This document shows, one piece after another, positions 9,671 through 42,545 of a DNA stretch of 43,799 nt. The first letter of the stretch is position 1. Every line of letters begins with the position of its first letter. Origin of the DNA: an uncultured Bacilli bacterium (GTDB lineage Bacteria > Bacillota_I > Bacilli_A > RF39 > UBA660); the NCBI GenBank assembly GCA_947629815.1, contig CANRFG010000007.1, positions 1 through 43,799 on the forward strand, given 5' to 3'. The position numbers and the translations under genes are program-made. Below the pieces are notes generated by a model that saw only the letters and a list, made by a program, of their open reading frames with translations, had not been told where the DNA came from and did no database searches.

Positions 9671-10123
9671 TACTTTTTCTATTATTACTGTTGAATTTTC
9701 ATCTATTTGTTTGATTATTTTTCTTACTTTATTTTTATTTTTTCTTTTTGTTAAAATTACCATTTTATCAGCCTCATTAAGTTCTATTATTTTATAATTG
9801 TTTGTAATTAAAATATTTTTAATTTTATTCTTTAATTTTGAATTTATAACACATGTAATCATAATGTTTCCCATGGCCATTTTTTGTTCTATTAAACTTC
9901 CAATATAAGAACCAATAGAAGAACCTAATATAAAAGCAATAGCCTTAAAATAATCTTTATTTATATCTATTATTACAATACTTGTAGTTACAATCCAAAC
10001 AATAGATATAAATACTTGCAATATAGCGCCCATTATTTTTCTTCCATTAGCAACTACTATTACTCTAAGCGTACCTAAAGCACTTTCTATAACCTTTGAT
10101 AAGAATATAAAAAAATATATCAT
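9659..10123 (-). CDS. UPF0316 / DUF5698 membrane protein
   Basis: VIESALGTLRVIVVANGRKIMGAILQVFIS; TM segments plus C-terminal domain. Confidence 0.75.
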   Translation of the reverse strand: MIYFFIFLSKVIESALGTLRVIVVANGRKIMGAILQVFISIVWIVTTSIVIIDINKDYFKAIAFILGSSIGSYIGSLIEQKMAMGNIMITCVINSKLKNKIKNILITNNYKIIELNEADKMVILTKRKNKNKVRKIIKQIDENSTVIIEKVLFD

Positions 10124-11292
10124 ATACTAACTCCTGTATAATAATGTTTTAAAATTTGTATATAGTTATATCCCATCTTTGCCATTTCGTTTGCGCCATA
10201 TTGACTCATTCCAATGCCATGACCATATCCATGTGTTGTAATAGTTACACTATTATTATCAATGTCTATACTAAAATCAGTAGAATATAATTTTAGAAGT
10301 TTTTTGAATTCGATACCTTTGTATATTTTATTATTAACTATTATATTTTTAACTCTTCCAGATTTATTTCGTGTTATTTTATATTTAATTGATTTTTGTA
10401 CATTTAATCCTAGTAATGTACAAAATTCTTCTATTGAAAAATTAACTTTATTTTCAAATGATTTGGAATTTTTATCAAAACTGCTATCAACACTTTTTAA
10501 ATATGGTATATACTTTCCCAATACATTTATGCTATCTTCTGTTTTACCATTACTTATAAGGTGGTAAATCGCATTTATATAATTATTTTTATATTTTATT
10601 ACTTGACCTTTTGTAGTAGTAACTGCTTCTTTTATTTTTTTATAATATTTGTTAAAATTTTTCTCCCATTGTAATTTTAATTGTGATATATCTTTATAAC
10701 TTTGAGTTGAAAAAACTTTAAATTTTTTATTTTCATGAATATTTTTAAGTGCATGTGTTCTGCAAACAACTGCTTGTGCCTTAAGGGCTTCAATGTTAAA
10801 TGTCGCAGGCATTTGTGAACTTACTACACCTATTATGTAATCTTCTAATTTTAGTTTAAGTATATTACCATTATTTCTATACAATGTAACTATAATTTCA
10901 TTATTTTGTTTTACATTTGTCTTTTTGTTTACATCATTTTTGCGTTCATTTTCAAAAATATTACCTTTTACCTTACTATTACATTGTATATTTATTTCAT
11001 AATCTGTTAAATTATTGTTATTAAAATCATGAATTATAATTTTTGTAATATAATCATATACTGCTTTTTGACTCAAACTTTCTATTTTAAGTGGATTTAT
11101 AAGTAGTGTACAAATTATTATTCCAGATGATACAATAAAAATTTTTTCCCCTTTAAAATTTATATTTTTTATAAACTTTTTAATTGTTAAAAATAAAGTT
11201 TCTTTTTTTTTATTTTCAAATTTATTGAAGTCAATATATAAAAATAAAATGTCTTCATTTTTTTGCTTTATTATTTTATATCCACTAATCAT
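10120..11292 (-). CDS. spoIID: SpoIID/LytB-domain protein (stage II sporulation protein D)
   Basis: LEDYIIGVVSSQMPATFNIEALKAQAVVCRTHAL and GHGIGMSQYGANEMA. Confidence 0.88.
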   Translation of the reverse strand: MISGYKIIKQKNEDILFLYIDFNKFENKKKETLFLTIKKFIKNINFKGEKIFIVSSGIIICTLLINPLKIESLSQKAVYDYITKIIIHDFNNNNLTDYEINIQCNSKVKGNIFENERKNDVNKKTNVKQNNEIIVTLYRNNGNILKLKLEDYIIGVVSSQMPATFNIEALKAQAVVCRTHALKNIHENKKFKVFSTQSYKDISQLKLQWEKNFNKYYKKIKEAVTTTKGQVIKYKNNYINAIYHLISNGKTEDSINVLGKYIPYLKSVDSSFDKNSKSFENKVNFSIEEFCTLLGLNVQKSIKYKITRNKSGRVKNIIVNNKIYKGIEFKKLLKLYSTDFSIDIDNNSVTITTHGYGHGIGMSQYGANEMAKMGYNYIQILKHYYTGVSI

Positions 11293-11468
11293 AGAAATCA
11301 CCAATTTTATTATTTGTAAAAAAGTAAAAAAAATACAATTGTTATTAATATTAAGGTATATTGTAATTAATTTAATTTATTGTGCATAAATTTATTACAT
11401 GGAAAAATAAAAAAAGTATTAAAAAATGTCGAAATTTGTGATATCATTATATAGTAGAGGTGATTGTT

Positions 11469-17657: not shown

Positions 17658-17734
17658 ACCATAATTTACCAATAAAAAAAATGTATGAAATCACAACTTG
17701 TACACATGATATTAGTGTACAGGAGGTGAAAACC

Positions 17735-17944
17735 ATGAATAAATCAAGTAACAGTAAATTAGTAGTTGCTGGAGCAAAACAAGCTATCGAAAGAATGAAA
17801 TATGAAATAGCTAGTGAATTAGGAGTTAACCTAGGACCAGATGCAACTTCAAGAGCTAATGGATCAGTTGGTGGAGAAATCACTAAGAGATTAGTTCAAA
17901 TGGGTGAACAACATTTAGGTGGTTCAAATTACCAAGCAAAATAA
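17735..17944 (+). CDS. Alpha/beta-type small acid-soluble spore protein
   Basis: [51 protein letters not shown] before ATG 17735. Confidence 0.95.
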
Positions 17945-18186
17945 TGAAATTGGACAGTTGAAATAACTGTCTTTTTTTAAAAAAAGTTAAAAAAAGATGC
18001 AAAAGTTATACAAAATAATGAAATTTGGACAAAATTTATTAAATGCATCTCCTTTATTATTTTTAGCAGTTAAATCTATTATATTAGTGACATAAATTAC
18101 TATTATTATATAATAAATATTGGTATTAATTGGTTCGTTAAATAAGGTTTAATTGGGCATAATATTAATAAAGGAAGGTGAATTTA

Positions 18187-18375
18187 ATGAGTAATAAATT
18201 AATTGTTCCTGGAAGTAAACAAGCAATTGAAAATTTAAAATATGAAATTGCAAATGAACTTGGAATAACATTAGGTGCTGATACATCTAGTAGATTAAAT
18301 GGCACAGTAGGTGGGTATATGACTAAAAAATTAGTAGAACTTGGAAAACAATATTATACTGATACAAATAAATAA
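18187..18375 (+). CDS. Alpha/beta-type small acid-soluble spore protein
   Basis: KQAIENLKYEIANELGITLGADTSSRLNGTVGGYMTKKLVE. Confidence 0.95.
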   Translation: MSNKLIVPGSKQAIENLKYEIANELGITLGADTSSRLNGTVGGYMTKKLVELGKQYYTDTNK

Positions 18376-21863: not shown

Positions 21864-23561
21864 ATGAAGAAAGGGTTTACTTTAATTGAACTTTTAGCGG
21901 TAGTAGTAATTATTAGTTTGATAATTGTTTTTGTTGTACCTTCTATAATGAATAGTGTTAAAAATTCTGATGATTTAGAATATAAAAATTTTTTGGAAAC
22001 TTTATCTATGGCAGGTGAAACATATTATCAAAGTAATAAGGATATATGTGATTTTTCTAATTCTAATGTGTGTTATTTAGAAGTTGGAAATTTGCTTTCT
22101 TCTGGGTTAATTGAACAGGATTTAATTAATCCTAAAACTGAGAAACAAGTTTTATCTAATGATACTATTACTATTTTAAAAGATGAGTATGGTACTTTGA
22201 CATATAGTTATTCTAGTAATGAAAATTATGTTAAAGATAATTTAATATTACATTATGACGCAATAAATAATACAGGAAATGGACATAGCAATAATACAAC
22301 AACATGGGAAGATTTAAGTGGAAATAATAATGATGGTACTATTTATTCTCAAAAATGGGGAAATAATTCGCTAACATTTGATGGAACAAATACATATGTA
22401 TCTACCCCAATTACAAGTATAAATGAAAGTGTTACATTTGAAGTAGTTGCAAAAATACCTGAAGTTGTTTCAGTAGATGAACAATATCTAATTGCTTTTT
22501 CTCCTGAAGTTTATAATTATACAGGAATTTCTTTTATGAATACTGGTATGATGCGACCATTAAGTTATTATCAATCTGAAATGCATAATTATATTGATTA
22601 TACTAAATACATAGGAAAAACTATTACTTTTACTTTAGTAGCTAGAAAAAATGGAGCATCAGCTTTTTATATAAATGGTAAAAAAGTACTTGACTATACA
22701 TCAGGAGATGTGTCTCCTGGAACAGTAAATTTAACTATAGGTGATTTAAGAGCAAATAGAGGATTAAAATTTAAAGGTGATGTATATAGTGTTAGAGTAT
22801 ATGATGGTACTTTAACAGAACAAGAAGTAAAACAGAATTATGAAATAGACGCAAATAGATATGGAATTGCTCAAAATACAACAGATGATTATGTTCAAAA
22901 TAATTTAGTATTACATTATGATGCAATAAATAATACAGGAAGTGGGCATAGTAGTGATACAACAACATGGAAAGATTTAAGTGGGAATAATAATGATGGG
23001 ACTTTACAAGGATTTTCTTTTGATATAAATAATGGTTGGACATCTAATTCATTAAAAATAAATGGTAAAAATTTTGTTACTGCTTCTAATGCTGAATTAA
23101 CTAATTTTACAAGTAGTGATTTTACTATAGAAGTTGTATTTAAAAATATAGGTAACTATTCTAGTTACAATCCTTTGATAGTTTCAAATGGATGGTATCA
23201 AACATATGGATATTATGTTCAATTTAGAGGAGATGGAAGAGTTAGTATTAATACTAATCAATCTGGTACTTCTCAAGACCTTTATACTTCACAAAATAAA
23301 ATAATCAGTAATAAAAATATCGCAGTAACATTTGTAAGAAAAGGAACAAACATGAAAGTTTATGTGAATGGGATTTTAGATGGACAGGTGAATAATATAG
23401 TTGACCCTGCTACTTCAACTACGCCATATACAATAAATGCAAATAAAAATTGGAATGGTGAATTAATGAATACTAGAGTATATAATAGGGCACTAACAGA
23501 ACAAGAAATAACTGATAACTTTAATTTAGATAAAATAAGATATAATATTAAAGAGGCATAA
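21864..23561 (+). CDS. Type IV prepilin-like protein with two tandem LamG/concanavalin-like domains
   Basis: MKKGFTLIELLAVVVIISLIIVFVVPSIM prepilin motif; duplicated LHYDAINNTG.GHS..TTTW.DLSGNNNDGT. Confidence 0.85.
   Translation: MKKGFTLIELLAVVVIISLIIVFVVPSIMNSVKNSDDLEYKNFLETLSMAGETYYQSNKDICDFSNSNVCYLEVGNLLSSGLIEQDLINPKTEKQVLSNDTITILKDEYGTLTYSYSSNENYVKDNLILHYDAINNTGNGHSNNTTTWEDLSGNNNDGTIYSQKWGNNSLTFDGTNTYVSTPITSINESVTFEVVAKIPEVVSVDEQYLIAFSPEVYNYTGISFMNTGMMRPLSYYQSEMHNYIDYTKYIGKTITFTLVARKNGASAFYINGKKVLDYTSGDVSPGTVNLTIGDLRANRGLKFKGDVYSVRVYDGTLTEQEVKQNYEIDANRYGIAQNTTDDYVQNNLVLHYDAINNTGSGHSSDTTTWKDLSGNNNDGTLQGFSFDINNGWTSNSLKINGKNFVTASNAELTNFTSSDFTIEVVFKNIGNYSSYNPLIVSNGWYQTYGYYVQFRGDGRVSINTNQSGTSQDLYTSQNKIISNKNIAVTFVRKGTNMKVYVNGILDGQVNNIVDPATSTTPYTINANKNWNGELMNTRVYNRALTEQEITDNFNLDKIRYNIKEA
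22236..22340 (+). repeat. Intragenic direct repeat copy 1 (LamG module start)
   Basis: ~105 nt, roughly 89% identical by eye to 22899-23003. Confidence 0.85.
22899..23003 (+). repeat. Intragenic direct repeat copy 2 (LamG module start)
   Basis: ~105 nt matching 22236-22340; differences almost all transitions. Confidence 0.85.
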
Positions 23562-23572: not shown

Positions 23573-23701
23573 TATAATAATTTGTAAATAACACTTGTAT
23601 CTTATTATAAGATATTGTGTAATGATGTTGAGATATATAAGATAGTTAGGTGTTTTCCTCTATTCATTTGGTGTTTTAGCCTAGAATAGAGGTGATGTCC
23701 T

Positions 23702-23773
23702 ATGAAAGAGATATATATGGAGTATATAGTTTTAATACTTATACTACCTTATTTATTGAAAGAAGACGAATAA
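23702..23773 (+). CDS. 23-aa hydrophobic peptide MKEIYMEYIVLILILPYLLKEDE
   Basis: ATG with AGAGGTG RBS at 23688-23694 inside a hairpin arm; TM-like core with charged C-terminus. Confidence 0.55.
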   Translation: MKEIYMEYIVLILILPYLLKEDE

Positions 23774-23778
23774 AAGAA

Positions 23779-23808
23779 AAGCACCTACTTAAGTATGGTG
23801 TTTTTCAA
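23779..23808. terminator. Hairpin/terminator after short peptide ORF
   Basis: GCACCTACTTAAGTATGGTGTTTTT. Confidence 0.55.
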
Positions 23809-23828
23809 AGACAAAATAAATTTTGGAT

Positions 23829-23867
23829 AGAGATTAACACCTAACATAGAAAGTGTATCTCTTTTTT
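23829..23867 (+). terminator. Terminator hairpin containing anti-leader segment
   Basis: AGAGATtaACAC-ctaacatagaaa-GTGTATCTCTTTTTT. Confidence 0.6.
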
Positions 23868-24151
23868 ATTGTATGTGATTTCTCACATCTGTATACATGG
23901 TAACATATTTTTTTATACGAATCAATATGTTTAATTAGACATTTTTTTTATTATAATTTTTAATATTACTATAATAATGTAGTATAAATGTTTTTTTTAA
24001 ATATTTTATTTAAAGTGAAAGTGTTTTTGAATTCCTTTATTGATATATATAATAATATATCTCTAATATGTAAAGTTTTAAACTTTTTTAAGTTTATGAT
24101 AAAAAATGTGCTATAATTGTTATGTATATGTCATATATTAAGGAGAATATT

Positions 24152-25342
24152 ATGAAGAAGACAATTCGTGATTATGATTTAAACAATAAAAAAGTTATTA
24201 TTAGAGTTGATTTTAATGTACCTATAAAAGATGGTGTTATTTTAGATGATAATAGAATAAAAGAAAGTTTAAAAACTATTAATTATGCAATAGATAATAG
24301 TGCAAAAGTAATATTATTATCACACCTAGGTAGAATAAAAACAGAAGAAGATAAAATTAAAAATACACTAGAACCTGTAAGTAAAAGATTAAGTGAATTA
24401 TTAGATAGAAAAGTAATATTTGTAAAAGAAACAAGAGGTAAAAAATTAGAAGAAATAATAAACAACATGAATAAAAAAGATGTTGTCTTAATTGAAAACA
24501 CTAGATATGAAGATTTAATAAATAAATGCGAAAGTTCAAATGATAAAGAACTAGGAAAATATTGGGCAAGTTTAGGAGATATATTTATAAATGATGCATT
24601 TGGAACTTCTCATAGAGAACATGCATCTAATGTTGGAATTGCGAGTAACCTTCCAAGTGGTATAGGATTCCTTGTTGAAAAAGAATTAAATATGCTTCTT
24701 CCTACTATAAAAGAGCCAAAAAGACCTTTTACTGTAATACTAGGTGGTTCAAAAGTAAGCGATAAAATAGGAGTGATAAAAAATTTAGTACAAATAGCCG
24801 ATAATATTTTAATAGGTGGAGGAATGGCTTTTACATTTTTAAAATCCTTTGGACTTCAAGTTGGTTCATCACTAGTAGATAATGATAACATTGAATTTTG
24901 TAAAGACATGCTAGAAAAATATAAAGATAAAATAATACTTCCAATAGATGTTGTAACCTCAGATGAGATATCAGAAAATTCAAATTCAAAAGAATGTTTT
25001 ATAAGTGATATTAAAAATGATGATATTGGACTTGATATAGGAAAAGAAACCTTAAAATTATTTAAAGAATATATAGATAGTAGTAAAACTATTATTTGGA
25101 ATGGGCCAGTAGGTATGTTTGAAATAGAAAAATTTTCAAATGGAACAAAACAATTATTAGAAATGATTTCAAAAACAGATTCTTTAACTATAATAGGTGG
25201 TGGAGATACTGCATCTGCTGCAATAAATTTTGGATATAAAAATTCTTTCTCACATATTTCAACAGGTGGAGGAGCAACATTAGAATTATTAGAAGGAAAA
25301 ACTTTACCAGGAGTTGAAGTTATAGATGAGAAAGAAGCTTAA
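24152..25342 (+). CDS. pgk: Phosphoglycerate kinase
   Basis: VIIRVDFNVPIKDG; LLSHLGR; GGGDTASA...HISTGGGATLELLEGK. Confidence 0.98.
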   Translation: MKKTIRDYDLNNKKVIIRVDFNVPIKDGVILDDNRIKESLKTINYAIDNSAKVILLSHLGRIKTEEDKIKNTLEPVSKRLSELLDRKVIFVKETRGKKLEEIINNMNKKDVVLIENTRYEDLINKCESSNDKELGKYWASLGDIFINDAFGTSHREHASNVGIASNLPSGIGFLVEKELNMLLPTIKEPKRPFTVILGGSKVSDKIGVIKNLVQIADNILIGGGMAFTFLKSFGLQVGSSLVDNDNIEFCKDMLEKYKDKIILPIDVVTSDEISENSNSKECFISDIKNDDIGLDIGKETLKLFKEYIDSSKTIIWNGPVGMFEIEKFSNGTKQLLEMISKTDSLTIIGGGDTASAAINFGYKNSFSHISTGGGATLELLEGKTLPGVEVIDEKEA

Positions 25343-27707: not shown

Positions 27708-28469
27708 ATGATTAGATTATTAATGGTAGATGATAATGTAAATTTAGTTAATATGGTTTGTGAGTATTTTAAAGATAAAGAAAATATATCTGTTGATTTT
27801 ATCGCACATGATGGTAAAGAGGGAATAGAACTAATAGAAGAAAAACAAAATGAATATGATGTTATATTATTAGATTTAATAATGCCTAAAAAAGATGGAT
27901 TATATGTGTTAGAAGAAATGAAAAAAAGGGGAATAAATAAAAATGTAATAGTAGAAACAAGTTATAATACACAAGATGTAATAAAACAAGTTTCAGATTA
28001 TGGTGTAAATTATTTTATATTAAAACCATTTGAATTAGATGATTTAGAACAAAGAATAATTAATTTATCTAATAGAAAAGAAGATTCTAAAACTTTAGAT
28101 TTTTATCATAACAATTTACAAGTTTCAATAACAAAAATACTTCATGAATTAGGTATTCCTTCACATATAAAAGGATACCAATATATAAGAGAAGGGATAA
28201 GTATAATATTTGAAAGACCAGAAACTATTGGTGGAATAACTAAAGAATTATATCCAGAACTTGCAAGTAAATTTGATACTACTGTATCAAGAGTTGAAAG
28301 AGCTATAAGACATGCTATTGAAGTTAGTTGGAATAGAGGAGATTGGAGCTTAATGGAAGAAATATTTGGACATAGTGTTGATATTGATAAGGCAAAACCA
28401 ACTAATTCTGAATTTATAGTTACTGTTGCAGATAAATTAAGATTAGAACATTACAAAGTTAAAAATTGA
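27708..28469 (+). CDS. spo0A: Sporulation master regulator Spo0A
   Basis: Receiver domain + [24 protein letters not shown] and [23 protein letters not shown]-binding domain. Confidence 0.96.
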
Positions 28470-35556: not shown

Positions 35557-37122
35557 ATGAAAAAAGGTTTTACATTAGTAGAGTTATTAGCAGTAATAGT
35601 AATACTTGCAATAATAGCGTTGATAACAGTACCAATAATAATGAATATAGTAGAGTCATCTAAGAAAGCAACATCAGTAGAAAGTGCGAATGGATATGTA
35701 AGAGCAGTAACAAACTATTTAATAATGAATGTAGTAGATGATGGAGTATATAGTGTATTTGATAGTAACATAAAAGCAGAATATACAGGAACAAAAGTAA
35801 GTAATGGAAGTATAACAATAGAAAAAGGAGATATAAAGAAAGCCAATTTATGTATAAATGATTATTCAATAGATTATATAAATGGAGTATCAAGTATATC
35901 AAATAATGATTATTGTAAAGATACGAATAATAAAACATTAATAGTAAAGAAAAATAATGAAGAGTTAAAAAGCATATATATAGGAGAAAGTACAAATACA
36001 GAAATAGAAAAAGAAGATGTAACAAATATAGTATGTAATAATGGAGTAACTTTAAAGGAAGAAAATGGAAAAATAAAAGTAGAAAATATACTAAGTAATT
36101 CAGAATGTAATTTTAATAGTAATTTAGAAGATACAATAAACAATATAGATAATACAACAAATAACATATTATTATTAAATGATATAGAGTTAGAAACCAC
36201 TTTGACTATTCCAAAAGGAAAAGATGTAGTAATAAACTTAAATGGAAAAAGTGTTAGTTCAGAAAAAGATACAATTTCTAGTAAAGGTTATTTAACAATT
36301 GATGATACAACAGGTGGTGGAATAATAAATACAATTGGAAATAATACAAAAGTAATATCTAGTGATGGAACTAAATCTAAATTAGTAATTAAAAATGGTT
36401 ATATAAAAGGTACTTCAACTTGCAGTGAGTGGTATTGCACTCCTATTTATGTTGTAAATGAAAGTAATTTAGAAATATCTCCTGTAAAGGAAACTATTTT
36501 TGAAGATGGAGAATATAAAGATGGAGTTTATATAGAAAGTACTTATGGTATTACTGTGTGGGTAGCAAGTGCATCAAATGGCGTTATAAATGGTGGAACA
36601 TATAAAGCAATTTCTTTGGATAATGCTACTGCTTGGCAAAATCTAGTATGCTCTGTATGTAATACATTGACAATTAATGATGCTACTGCTCTTGGTGAAG
36701 GCTCTACTATTAGAGGACAAAAAAGTGGACATATAATCGTAAATGGTGGAAATTATGAGTCATCATTGAGAGGTACTATTATGAATGATAGTGATTTTAT
36801 AGGTTTAATTGATATTAATGGTGGTGTGTATGAATCAAATGGTTTACCTGTAATCTCTTGTAATGGTGCTTCAACTATAAACATTAAAAATGCTGAAATA
36901 ACTGTAAATGGTGAGTCTGTTCCAGCTGTTTCTAATAATTTTGATGGTTGTGTTGTCAATATATGTAGTGCTACAATTAAAAACGCTGATTATGATTTAT
37001 CTGCAGTTGGCACAATTAACTATAATCCATCTACTATAACTTGGTCTAATAATAAGCTAGAGCCTACAATTAAATCAGGTGAGGAATATATAAAAAGTAA
37101 TAATGAATTAAAATGTGATTAA
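35557..37122 (+). CDS. Type IV prepilin-like protein with beta-helix-like C-terminal region
   Basis: MKKGFTLVELLAVIVILAIIALITVPIIMNI; C-terminal repeated INGG.Y / VNGGNYES rungs. Confidence 0.8.
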   Translation: MKKGFTLVELLAVIVILAIIALITVPIIMNIVESSKKATSVESANGYVRAVTNYLIMNVVDDGVYSVFDSNIKAEYTGTKVSNGSITIEKGDIKKANLCINDYSIDYINGVSSISNNDYCKDTNNKTLIVKKNNEELKSIYIGESTNTEIEKEDVTNIVCNNGVTLKEENGKIKVENILSNSECNFNSNLEDTINNIDNTTNNILLLNDIELETTLTIPKGKDVVINLNGKSVSSEKDTISSKGYLTIDDTTGGGIINTIGNNTKVISSDGTKSKLVIKNGYIKGTSTCSEWYCTPIYVVNESNLEISPVKETIFEDGEYKDGVYIESTYGITVWVASASNGVINGGTYKAISLDNATAWQNLVCSVCNTLTINDATALGEGSTIRGQKSGHIIVNGGNYESSLRGTIMNDSDFIGLIDINGGVYESNGLPVISCNGASTINIKNAEITVNGESVPAVSNNFDGCVVNICSATIKNADYDLSAVGTINYNPSTITWSNNKLEPTIKSGEEYIKSNNELKCD

Positions 37123-40751: not shown

Positions 40752-42545
40752 ATGAATCAAAAACTTCGTAGTGAAATAAGTGATGAGTATAAATGGGATA
40801 TATCAAAAATTTATAGTAGTAAAGATTTATTTGAAAAAGATTTAGTAAAATGTTTAGAAGAAATAAAAAAAATAAAAAATCATACTAATTTAATGGAAAG
40901 TGCAAATAATTTATATGAATGTTTAAAACAAGAATATGAAACTGCTAGAATGTTAGATAAACTATATATGTATGCACATTTATCACTTGATACTGATACA
41001 ACTAACACAGAATCACAAGAAATGGTTGGAAAAGTTAAAAATTTATTTAAAGAATTTGATGAAGCAACATCTTTTATAAAACCAAGTTTATTAAAATATG
41101 ATTATGATGTAATCTTAAAATTTTATAATGAACAACCTAAATTAAAAGAATATGAAGTTGTTTTAAAAGATTTATTTAGATATAAAAATCATACTTTAAG
41201 TGAAAATGAAGAAATTTTAATTTCAAGATTAAGTAAAGCACTATCAAGTTCTTCAAACACATATGAAAATTTAACTGATTCTGATATGACTTTTGGAAAA
41301 ATAGTAGATGAAAATAATGAGTCAGTAGAACTTACAAGTAGTAATTATTCTAAATATATAAAATCAAAAGATAGAAAAGTTAGAAAAGATGCTTTTGATT
41401 TGATGTATAAAACTTATGAAAAATTTAAAAATACTATTGCATCTTCTTATGTTGGAGATGTAGAAGCAAATTCTTCACTTGCTAAAATATATAACTTTTC
41501 ATCTGCTTTAGAAGCATCATTATTTGCAGATGAAATAAATGTAGAAGTATATGATAATTTAATTAAAACAGTTTCAAATAACCTTAATTATATTTATAAA
41601 TATTATGATATTAAAAAGAAAGCATTAAATCTTGAAGAATTACATTTATATGATACTTATGTACCTGTAGTTGATGAAAGTACTAAAGAATATTCTTTTG
41701 AACAAGCAGTTGATATTGTTAAAGATGCTTTAAGTATTTTAGGTGATGAATATTCAAAAGATTTAGAAAAAGCATTTAAAGAAAAATGGATAGATGTATA
41801 TAATAGTAAAGGTAAAAGAAGTGGAGCATATTCTAGTGGTTCATATGATACAAATCCATATTTGCTTTTAAATTTTGAAGGTACATTAAATGATGTTTCT
41901 ACTTTAGCGCATGAATTAGGTCATTCAATGCATAGTTATTATTCAAAGAAAAATAATTCATTTCAAAATAGTGGGTATAAAATATTTGTTGCAGAAGTTG
42001 CATCTACAGTAAATGAGTTACTTCTTGCATTTCATTTACTTAATAAAACAGAAGATAGAAATGAAAAATTAGTTATTTTAAACAATTTACTTGATTTGTT
42101 TAAATCTACTATATATAGACAAACAATGTTTGCAGAATTTGAAAGAGAAATGTATAAGAAACATGAAAATAACGAAGTTTTAACACACGAAGTTTTAAGT
42201 GATTTCTATTATAATTTAAATAAAAAATATTTTGGTGATGGAGTTATAATAGATGACTATATTAGATATGAATGGGAAAGAATACCACATTTTTACTATA
42301 ATTTTTATGTATATAAATATGCAACAGGATTAAGTGCTGCATGTTATATAGTAGATAATATACTAAAAAATACAAACAACATGAAAGAAAATTATCTTAA
42401 ATTTTTAACTTTAGGTGGTTCTATGCCCCCTTTAGAGGAATTAAAAGTAATGGGTATAGATATGACTGATAGTGTAGTAGTAGAATCAGCTATTAAAATG
42501 TTTGATTCAATATTACAACAATTTGAACAATTATTAGAGAAGTAA
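40752..42545 (+). CDS. pepF: Oligoendopeptidase F (M3 family)
   Basis: [12 protein letters not shown] zinc motif; PepF N-terminal pattern. Confidence 0.93.

Follow-up and report, generated by a model that had tools for sequence, protein, structure and literature searches.

The locus and its parts

The locus lies between a gene for a pilin-like protein with a LamG-type domain (21864-23561) and a gene (24122-25342) that, from reading its sequence, we take to encode phosphoglycerate kinase (PGK), in a window of 43,799 nucleotides, which is the whole stretch of DNA that was analyzed. On the plus strand it holds a predicted sense gene for a small hydrophobic peptide, and on the minus strand a predicted convergent antisense gene. 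The feature is larger than the sequence-only reading had first described: the outer ends of the sense RNA pair as well (GAGATA at 23630 with TATCTC ending at 23861), and the antisense gene reaches about 23925. Its parts are as follows.

23595-23623, plus: promoter of the putative toxin mRNA, placed by aligned flanks; -35 TTGTAT at 23595-23600, 17-nt spacer, -10 TGTAAT at 23618-23623
23630-23868, plus: putative toxin mRNA of about 240 nt, GAGATA to T-run, predicted from sequence
23630-23644, plus: end5, outer 5' arm GAGATATATAAGATA; covaries with end3 in the 63 homologous elements and in 18 representatives
23645-23654, plus: L, leader arm GTTAGGTGTT; covaries with R and with M1
23657-23665, plus: arm5, anti-Shine-Dalgarno arm CCTCTATTC; pairs with the Shine-Dalgarno arm or with arm3, and both pairings covary
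23684-23696, plus: Shine-Dalgarno arm GAATAGAGG (23684-23692) and Shine-Dalgarno sequence AGAGGTGAT; covaries with arm5
23702-23773, plus: 23-aa ORF MKEIYMEYIVLILILPYLLKEDE; in homologs its start is that of an out-of-frame leader ORF
23717-23773, plus: conserved toxin-like peptide frame MEYIVLILILPYLLKEDE, 18 aa; coding selection in homologs
23776-23806, minus: M1/M2 hairpin, antisense terminator; M1 GAAAAGCACC at 23776-23785, M2 GGTGTTTTTC at 23797-23806
23825-23832, plus: arm3 GGATAGAG, partner of arm5 by covariation
23836-23845, plus: R AACACCTAAC, partner of L by covariation
23846-23867, plus: end3 and T-run; GTATCTC at 23855-23861, TTTTTT at 23862-23867
23766-23890, minus: predicted convergent antisense RNA (putative antitoxin), about 125 nt; fold z -3.7
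23888-23873, minus: antisense 5' hairpin ATGTGA-GAAA-TCACAT; its stems vary complementarily among elements
23897-23925, minus: antisense promoter; -35 TTGATT at 23925-23920, 17-nt spacer with TG, -10 TACCAT at 23902-23897

The start of the sense mRNA was placed from the position of the -10 element, and its end from the T-run at 23862-23867. In order, this RNA would carry end5 (GAGATACATTTGATA), L (GTTAGGTGTT), arm5 (CTCTATTC), the Shine-Dalgarno (SD) arm, the leader start, and the peptide ORF, followed by the M1/M2 hairpin, arm3 (GAATAGAG), R (AACACCTAAC), end3 (..TATCTC), and the T-run.

A family of homologs

The sequence-only reading had proposed a covariation search in related genomes, and that search returned 63 distinct homologous elements, whose pairings covary and whose peptide ORF is under selection as coding sequence. 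All come from uncultured Bacilli/Tenericutes genomes of one taxonomic family; the set draws on 193 genomes of that family, a pattern search of the order, and a pattern search of GTDB contigs, and in the contig search many host records are from samples named Lapin. The genome of the window has two more copies, in tandem, on another contig (C17), and several of the 63 elements form tandem arrays. Neighboring genes differ between genomes. One element (L150, on CANQID010000007.1) is the syntenic ortholog of the window copy, with a PGK that is 95% identical. Upstream of the predicted sense start, promoter-like hexamers are found in 49 of the 63 homologs, compared with 15% in shuffles, and the -10 element reads TATAAT in the C17 copies.

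That the locus looks undescribed, as had been noted, is borne out by every collection searched. Rfam covariance models gave no match at gathering score or at E values up to 1. Nine family peptides queried against Pfam and NCBIfam gave only sub-threshold noise (one query, MEYLIIAVIILVVILLMIIAVKK, is one residue different from the peptide of L148, MEYLIV..., which leaves the outcome unaffected). No family element was found in the phage and plasmid collections, and among 295 genomes sampled across Bacillota it was found only in the window's own genome. No paper turned up in a literature search that combined type I toxins with RF39. Four viral-contig pattern matches, and others in Bacillus fonticola, an Aerophobetes metagenome-assembled genome (MAG), and a Crocinitomix MAG, were rejected as chance matches without a leader arm and SD. 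Similarity searches detect type I modules poorly, a bias that is believed to shape their known range (PMC12390103). The window locus appears to belong, as one copy, to an undescribed family of genes that resemble type I toxin-antitoxin loci and whose hosts are uncultured gut Bacilli. Although it has no match in Rfam, Pfam, or NCBIfam, this family recurs in many genera of a gut lineage whose genomes measure about 1 Mb; further members can be sought with the pattern ACACCTAAC, 8-24 nt, GTATCTCTTTT.

The peptide and its leader

The 23-aa ORF on which the sequence-only reading had centered is present at 23702-23773, but the family peptide starts at the inner ATG at 23717 and is here 18 aa long. 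Across the family the peptide has 17-28 residues, mostly 18-24, and is hydrophobic with one predicted membrane span; it mostly begins M-E-Y/L, followed by a hydrophobic core and a tail that ends in D, K, or N, and TTG or GTG starts are frequent. Among 25 disjoint nearest pairs, peptide differences number 83/45/135 at codon positions 1/2/3, and this ORF is therefore coding. The strong SD serves a leader ORF instead; of the 57 copies with a leader start, 53 have this ORF in frame +1 relative to the peptide, and the distance from leader start to peptide start varies widely despite this conserved frame.

Covarying helices in the sense RNA

Each of the six sequence statements in the sequence-only reading proved correct at its given position. 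The predicted window transcript folds at -67.3 kcal/mol, versus -43.5 kcal/mol in shuffles (z -6.0; 0/200). The hairpin said to hold the ribosome site, CCTCTATTC (23657-23665) with GAATAGAGG (23684-23692), is present as placed, with a local fold of -15.9 kcal/mol (z -3.2), and it covaries. So does the reported complementarity between leader and 3' end, in which GTTAGGTGTT (23645-23654) and CTCTATTC pair with AACACCTAAC (23836-23845) and GGATAGAG (23825-23832); the second partial complement, AAAAGCACCTA, was likewise found at 23777-23787.

Are these pairings more than chance? In a swap test, which corrects only partly for relatedness, the duplex energy of each arm with its element's own partner was compared with that obtained when partners were exchanged between elements. 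Own partners were better for end5:end3 (-14.8 versus -11.5 kcal/mol), L:R (-11.4 versus -10.4), arm5:arm3 (-10.1 versus -5.9), and arm5:SD (-11.0 versus -7.7), with 0 of 2000 permutations as good in each case; the control pair SD:arm3 was null (-0.8 own versus -0.9 swapped kcal/mol). When each of 18 clusters was represented by a single element, in three separate draws, all four helices were still significant (1-8/5000 for L:R and 0/5000 for the other three). Compensatory pairs such as GTTAAGCGTT/AACGCTTAAC and GTTGGGTGTT/AGCACTCAAC illustrate the compensation. Because these pairings covary across 63 homologs, they are not chance. In the 49 elements whose middle hairpin was recognized, taken all together rather than as representatives, covariation extends to L:M1 and M2:R, so that one word serves four times, as L, M1, M2, and R.

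The anti-leader segment had also been assigned to a terminator hairpin. The sequence is there, but the local hairpin alone is weak in the window copy (z -0.8), and we rejected its stem as a covarying helix: the signal is weak in all 63 elements and is not robust among the 18 representatives, where there is no clear excess of covariation.

In ensemble folding of the full-length RNA, the closing helix is predicted to be nearly complete in almost all members, with about 13 end pairs and a mean L:R probability of 0.91, and arm5 is predicted to be split between SD (mean 6.4 pairs) and arm3 (mean 4.1). The SD is about 80% paired in every form folded, the truncated form included, so that simple ensemble folding does not reproduce an activation step. 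The two competing pairings of arm5 noted earlier thus both covary, but we claim no simple thermodynamic on/off switch because the SD is predicted to be occluded in both forms. More likely, the arms would serve to sequester the SD during transcription and then to close the RNA, as shown for aapA3 (PMC6733600). In a short class of elements (L080, L083, L094, L103, L076, and L077), leaders are GTTAAGCGTT or short CCTC, and there is a small SD hairpin only, with little arm5:arm3 pairing; the shared-arm switch is therefore not universal. The natural variation of the family can be used to test which helices matter.

A predicted convergent antisense gene

The sequence-only reading had set the locus apart from Fst as not convergent, and this needs correction: the sense gene is faced by a conserved, predicted antisense gene that has a promoter, a 5' hairpin, and a terminator of its own. 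Of 49 elements, 38 have a T-rich tract after the M1/M2 stem when it is read on the minus strand, and 1 has such a tract when it is read on the plus strand; the predicted antisense terminator falls at the stop codon of the peptide. At the other end, the motif TTGAYT-N14-TGnTAnnAT occurs on the minus strand, at a near-fixed distance downstream of the sense T-run, in 34 of the 63 elements versus 4.6% in shuffles; the pattern was not found in about half of the 63, which have another downstream flank. An alternative promoter abutting GAGATAC, with the T-run as discriminator, was rejected, as aligned flanks place the promoter further out. The 5' hairpin has a GAAA loop in 20 elements by script count and in the window copy also, and such a loop favors the minus strand as the transcribed strand. 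The predicted antisense RNA would overlap the mRNA 3' end by about 100 nt.

The window copy

In the window copy, unlike 53 of 57 homologs, leader and peptide are in one frame. Relative to L150, a TA insertion brings the leader start into the frame of the peptide, a leucine in the membrane core is replaced by proline (found in the window copy alone among the 63), and the segment between R and end3 (GTATCTC) is shortened; the end helix is weak, at -9.5 versus a mean of -14.8. Judged from its sequence, this copy is probably a recognizable but attenuated or decaying member, and the TA insertion may be an assembly error at a TA repeat. As a separate observation, the sense promoter spacer of the three copies in this genome (upstream of window 23595, L009:84, and L009:462) contains an inverted repeat, TATCTTA-TTT-TAAGATA, a possible operator.

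Comparison with known systems

In hok/mok/Sok of Escherichia coli plasmid R1, the mRNA folds back on itself and hok translation is coupled to mok (PMC8167048). Like that system, the family has 5'-3' mRNA closure (the covarying end5:end3 and L:R helices), a short membrane peptide, and several copies per genome, and, as with mok and hok, a leader ORF overlaps in another frame (+1 in 53 of 57 homologs, although the window copy lacks this). Unlike hok, the peptide has no Hok/Gef family match in Pfam or NCBIfam. It is also under half the length of the Hok peptide. Whereas the Sok type targets the leader, the predicted antisense RNA would start from a promoter downstream and run only to the stop codon of the peptide; the hosts of this family are Bacillota.

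The aapA mRNAs of Helicobacter combine 5'-3' closure with metastable hairpins (PMC6733600). The family shares with aapA/IsoA the long-distance 5'-3' interaction, the SD hairpins expected during transcription, and the multiple loci, but its 3' arm pairs with the anti-SD arm and the leader rather than with the SD (the null SD:arm3 control), and its antisense RNA is positioned differently; the text consulted describes no overlapping leader ORF for aapA (PMC6733600).

The systems bsrG/SR4, txpA/RatA, and bsrE/SR5 of Bacillus subtilis (PMC6562991) likewise are Firmicutes systems with an occluded SD, a small membrane toxin (here putative), and a convergent antisense RNA of about 100-140 nt on the mRNA 3' end. 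Those systems lack the overlapping +1 leader, and the family peptide is shorter than TxpA (59 aa) and YonT (58 aa); Pfam/NCBIfam profile searches found no similarity to TxpA/BsrG above noise. With fst/RNAII of the Enterococcus par locus (PMC8167048), the family shares convergent genes and a short membrane peptide with a charged tail. It may also share a short repeat through which the antisense RNA could recognize the 5' leader: L is repeated in M2 and covaries with M1 (49 elements). Unlike fst/RNAII, the middle hairpin would terminate only the antisense RNA and is not bidirectional (minus 38/49, plus 1/49); Fst has 33 aa, and no sequence similarity was found. In sum, profile searches place the elements in none of the known families compared, and each of these families is set apart from them by one or more of the defining features tested.

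Interpretation and proposed mechanism

The type I traits legible in the sequence are a coding, hydrophobic, single-span peptide ORF and a predicted minus-strand antisense gene complementary to its mRNA; from these we infer a type I toxin-antitoxin-like locus, together with its expression, toxicity, and mechanism. We think it probable that the elements form a new lineage-specific family of type I modules that would join hok/AapA-style mRNA self-closure with a convergent antitoxin of the Bacillota style, like that of TxpA and BsrG.

A small, nontoxic regulatory membrane peptide under the same RNA control, its level tuned by the antisense RNA, is an unlikely alternative. Several small membrane peptides are regulators, and the coding test shows only that the peptide is selected. 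However, layered repression, tandem arrays, and a lineage-restricted, multicopy pattern fit a toxin better, as does a copy in which a helix-breaking change accompanies lost control features. Much less probable is a miniature mobile element, with end5-L and R-end3 as terminal inverted repeats that mimic an RNA helix: the many dispersed copies, the inverted repeats at both ends, and the genome-specific neighbors would suit it, but homology extends outward through the promoters on both sides, the inner part holds a selected ORF, the arm5:SD and M1:M2 helices covary independently, and the bases abutting the repeats (promoter spacer and T-run) are unlike target duplications. The whole unit may be mobile by other means. 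The sequence-only reading is supported in its mRNA for a small hydrophobic peptide of type I toxin character, with an occluded ribosome site and competing 5'-3' pairings. Its tandem alternative, with a second plus-strand RNA made from the 3' segment and pairing with the leader as antitoxin, is scarcely credible: that complementary segment accounts for the mRNA's own closure, the only listed plus-strand promoter-like site in the locus is in the ORF with none in the 3' segment, and it is the minus strand that has a conserved promoter and terminator.

For the type I module, we posit that the sense gene would be transcribed into an mRNA of about 240 nt that encodes a membrane peptide with a single span, mostly of 18-24 aa. 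As the RNA emerges, arm5 would pair with the strong SD and block it; covariation supports the pairing, and the timing is our conjecture. After synthesis of the 3' end, this end and the leader would zip together, a pairing that covariation again supports, and the full-length mRNA would be a closed and presumably silent reservoir. By analogy with hok and AapA, trimming of the mRNA 3' end would be required to activate it. On the active mRNA, ribosomes would load at the leader start and reach the peptide start in the conserved +1 frame by what may be translational coupling. RatA and SR4 pair at the 3' end of their toxin mRNAs (PMC6562991); like them, the convergent antisense RNA of about 125 nt, which would cover the whole 3' UTR, is expected to capture the mRNA for RNase III decay, and its complement of the repeated word GGTGTTTT could reach the 5' leader too.

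We advance more tentatively a further idea, on which we lean slightly toward doubt. A single short word, present four times in alternating sense as L, M1, M2, and R, would underlie the mRNA, and the lock, the terminator of the antisense RNA, and a possible contact of that RNA with the leader would then share a motif and have to coevolve. One leader arm, which covaries on both sides, would be shared by the SD and the 3' end, so that an RNA switch and a mok-like +1 leader would jointly gate a toxin of about 20 aa.

Other features of the window

Elsewhere in the window, two alpha/beta-type small acid-soluble spore proteins, Spo0A, and a SpoIID-domain protein are encoded (17681-17944, 18178-18375, and 27708-28469 on the plus strand and 10120-11304 on the minus strand); sporulation genes are kept in a genome of about 1.1 Mb. 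The segment 2212-6920, beside the tRNA cluster, resembles a small integrated element: it encodes a phage-type integrase, a REP_ORF2/G2P-type replication protein, an MvaI/BcnI-family restriction endonuclease, and two similar small HTH-like proteins. Genes for two large proteins resembling pilins, both bearing N-methylation signals, lie at 21864-23561 and 35557-37122; one of the proteins has two LamG-type stretches, an unusual pilin cargo. Finally, going by names assigned from reading the sequences, an M3-type oligopeptidase-like gene (40752-42545) interrupts the order hrcA-grpE-dnaK-dnaJ between the dnaK-like and the dnaJ-like gene.
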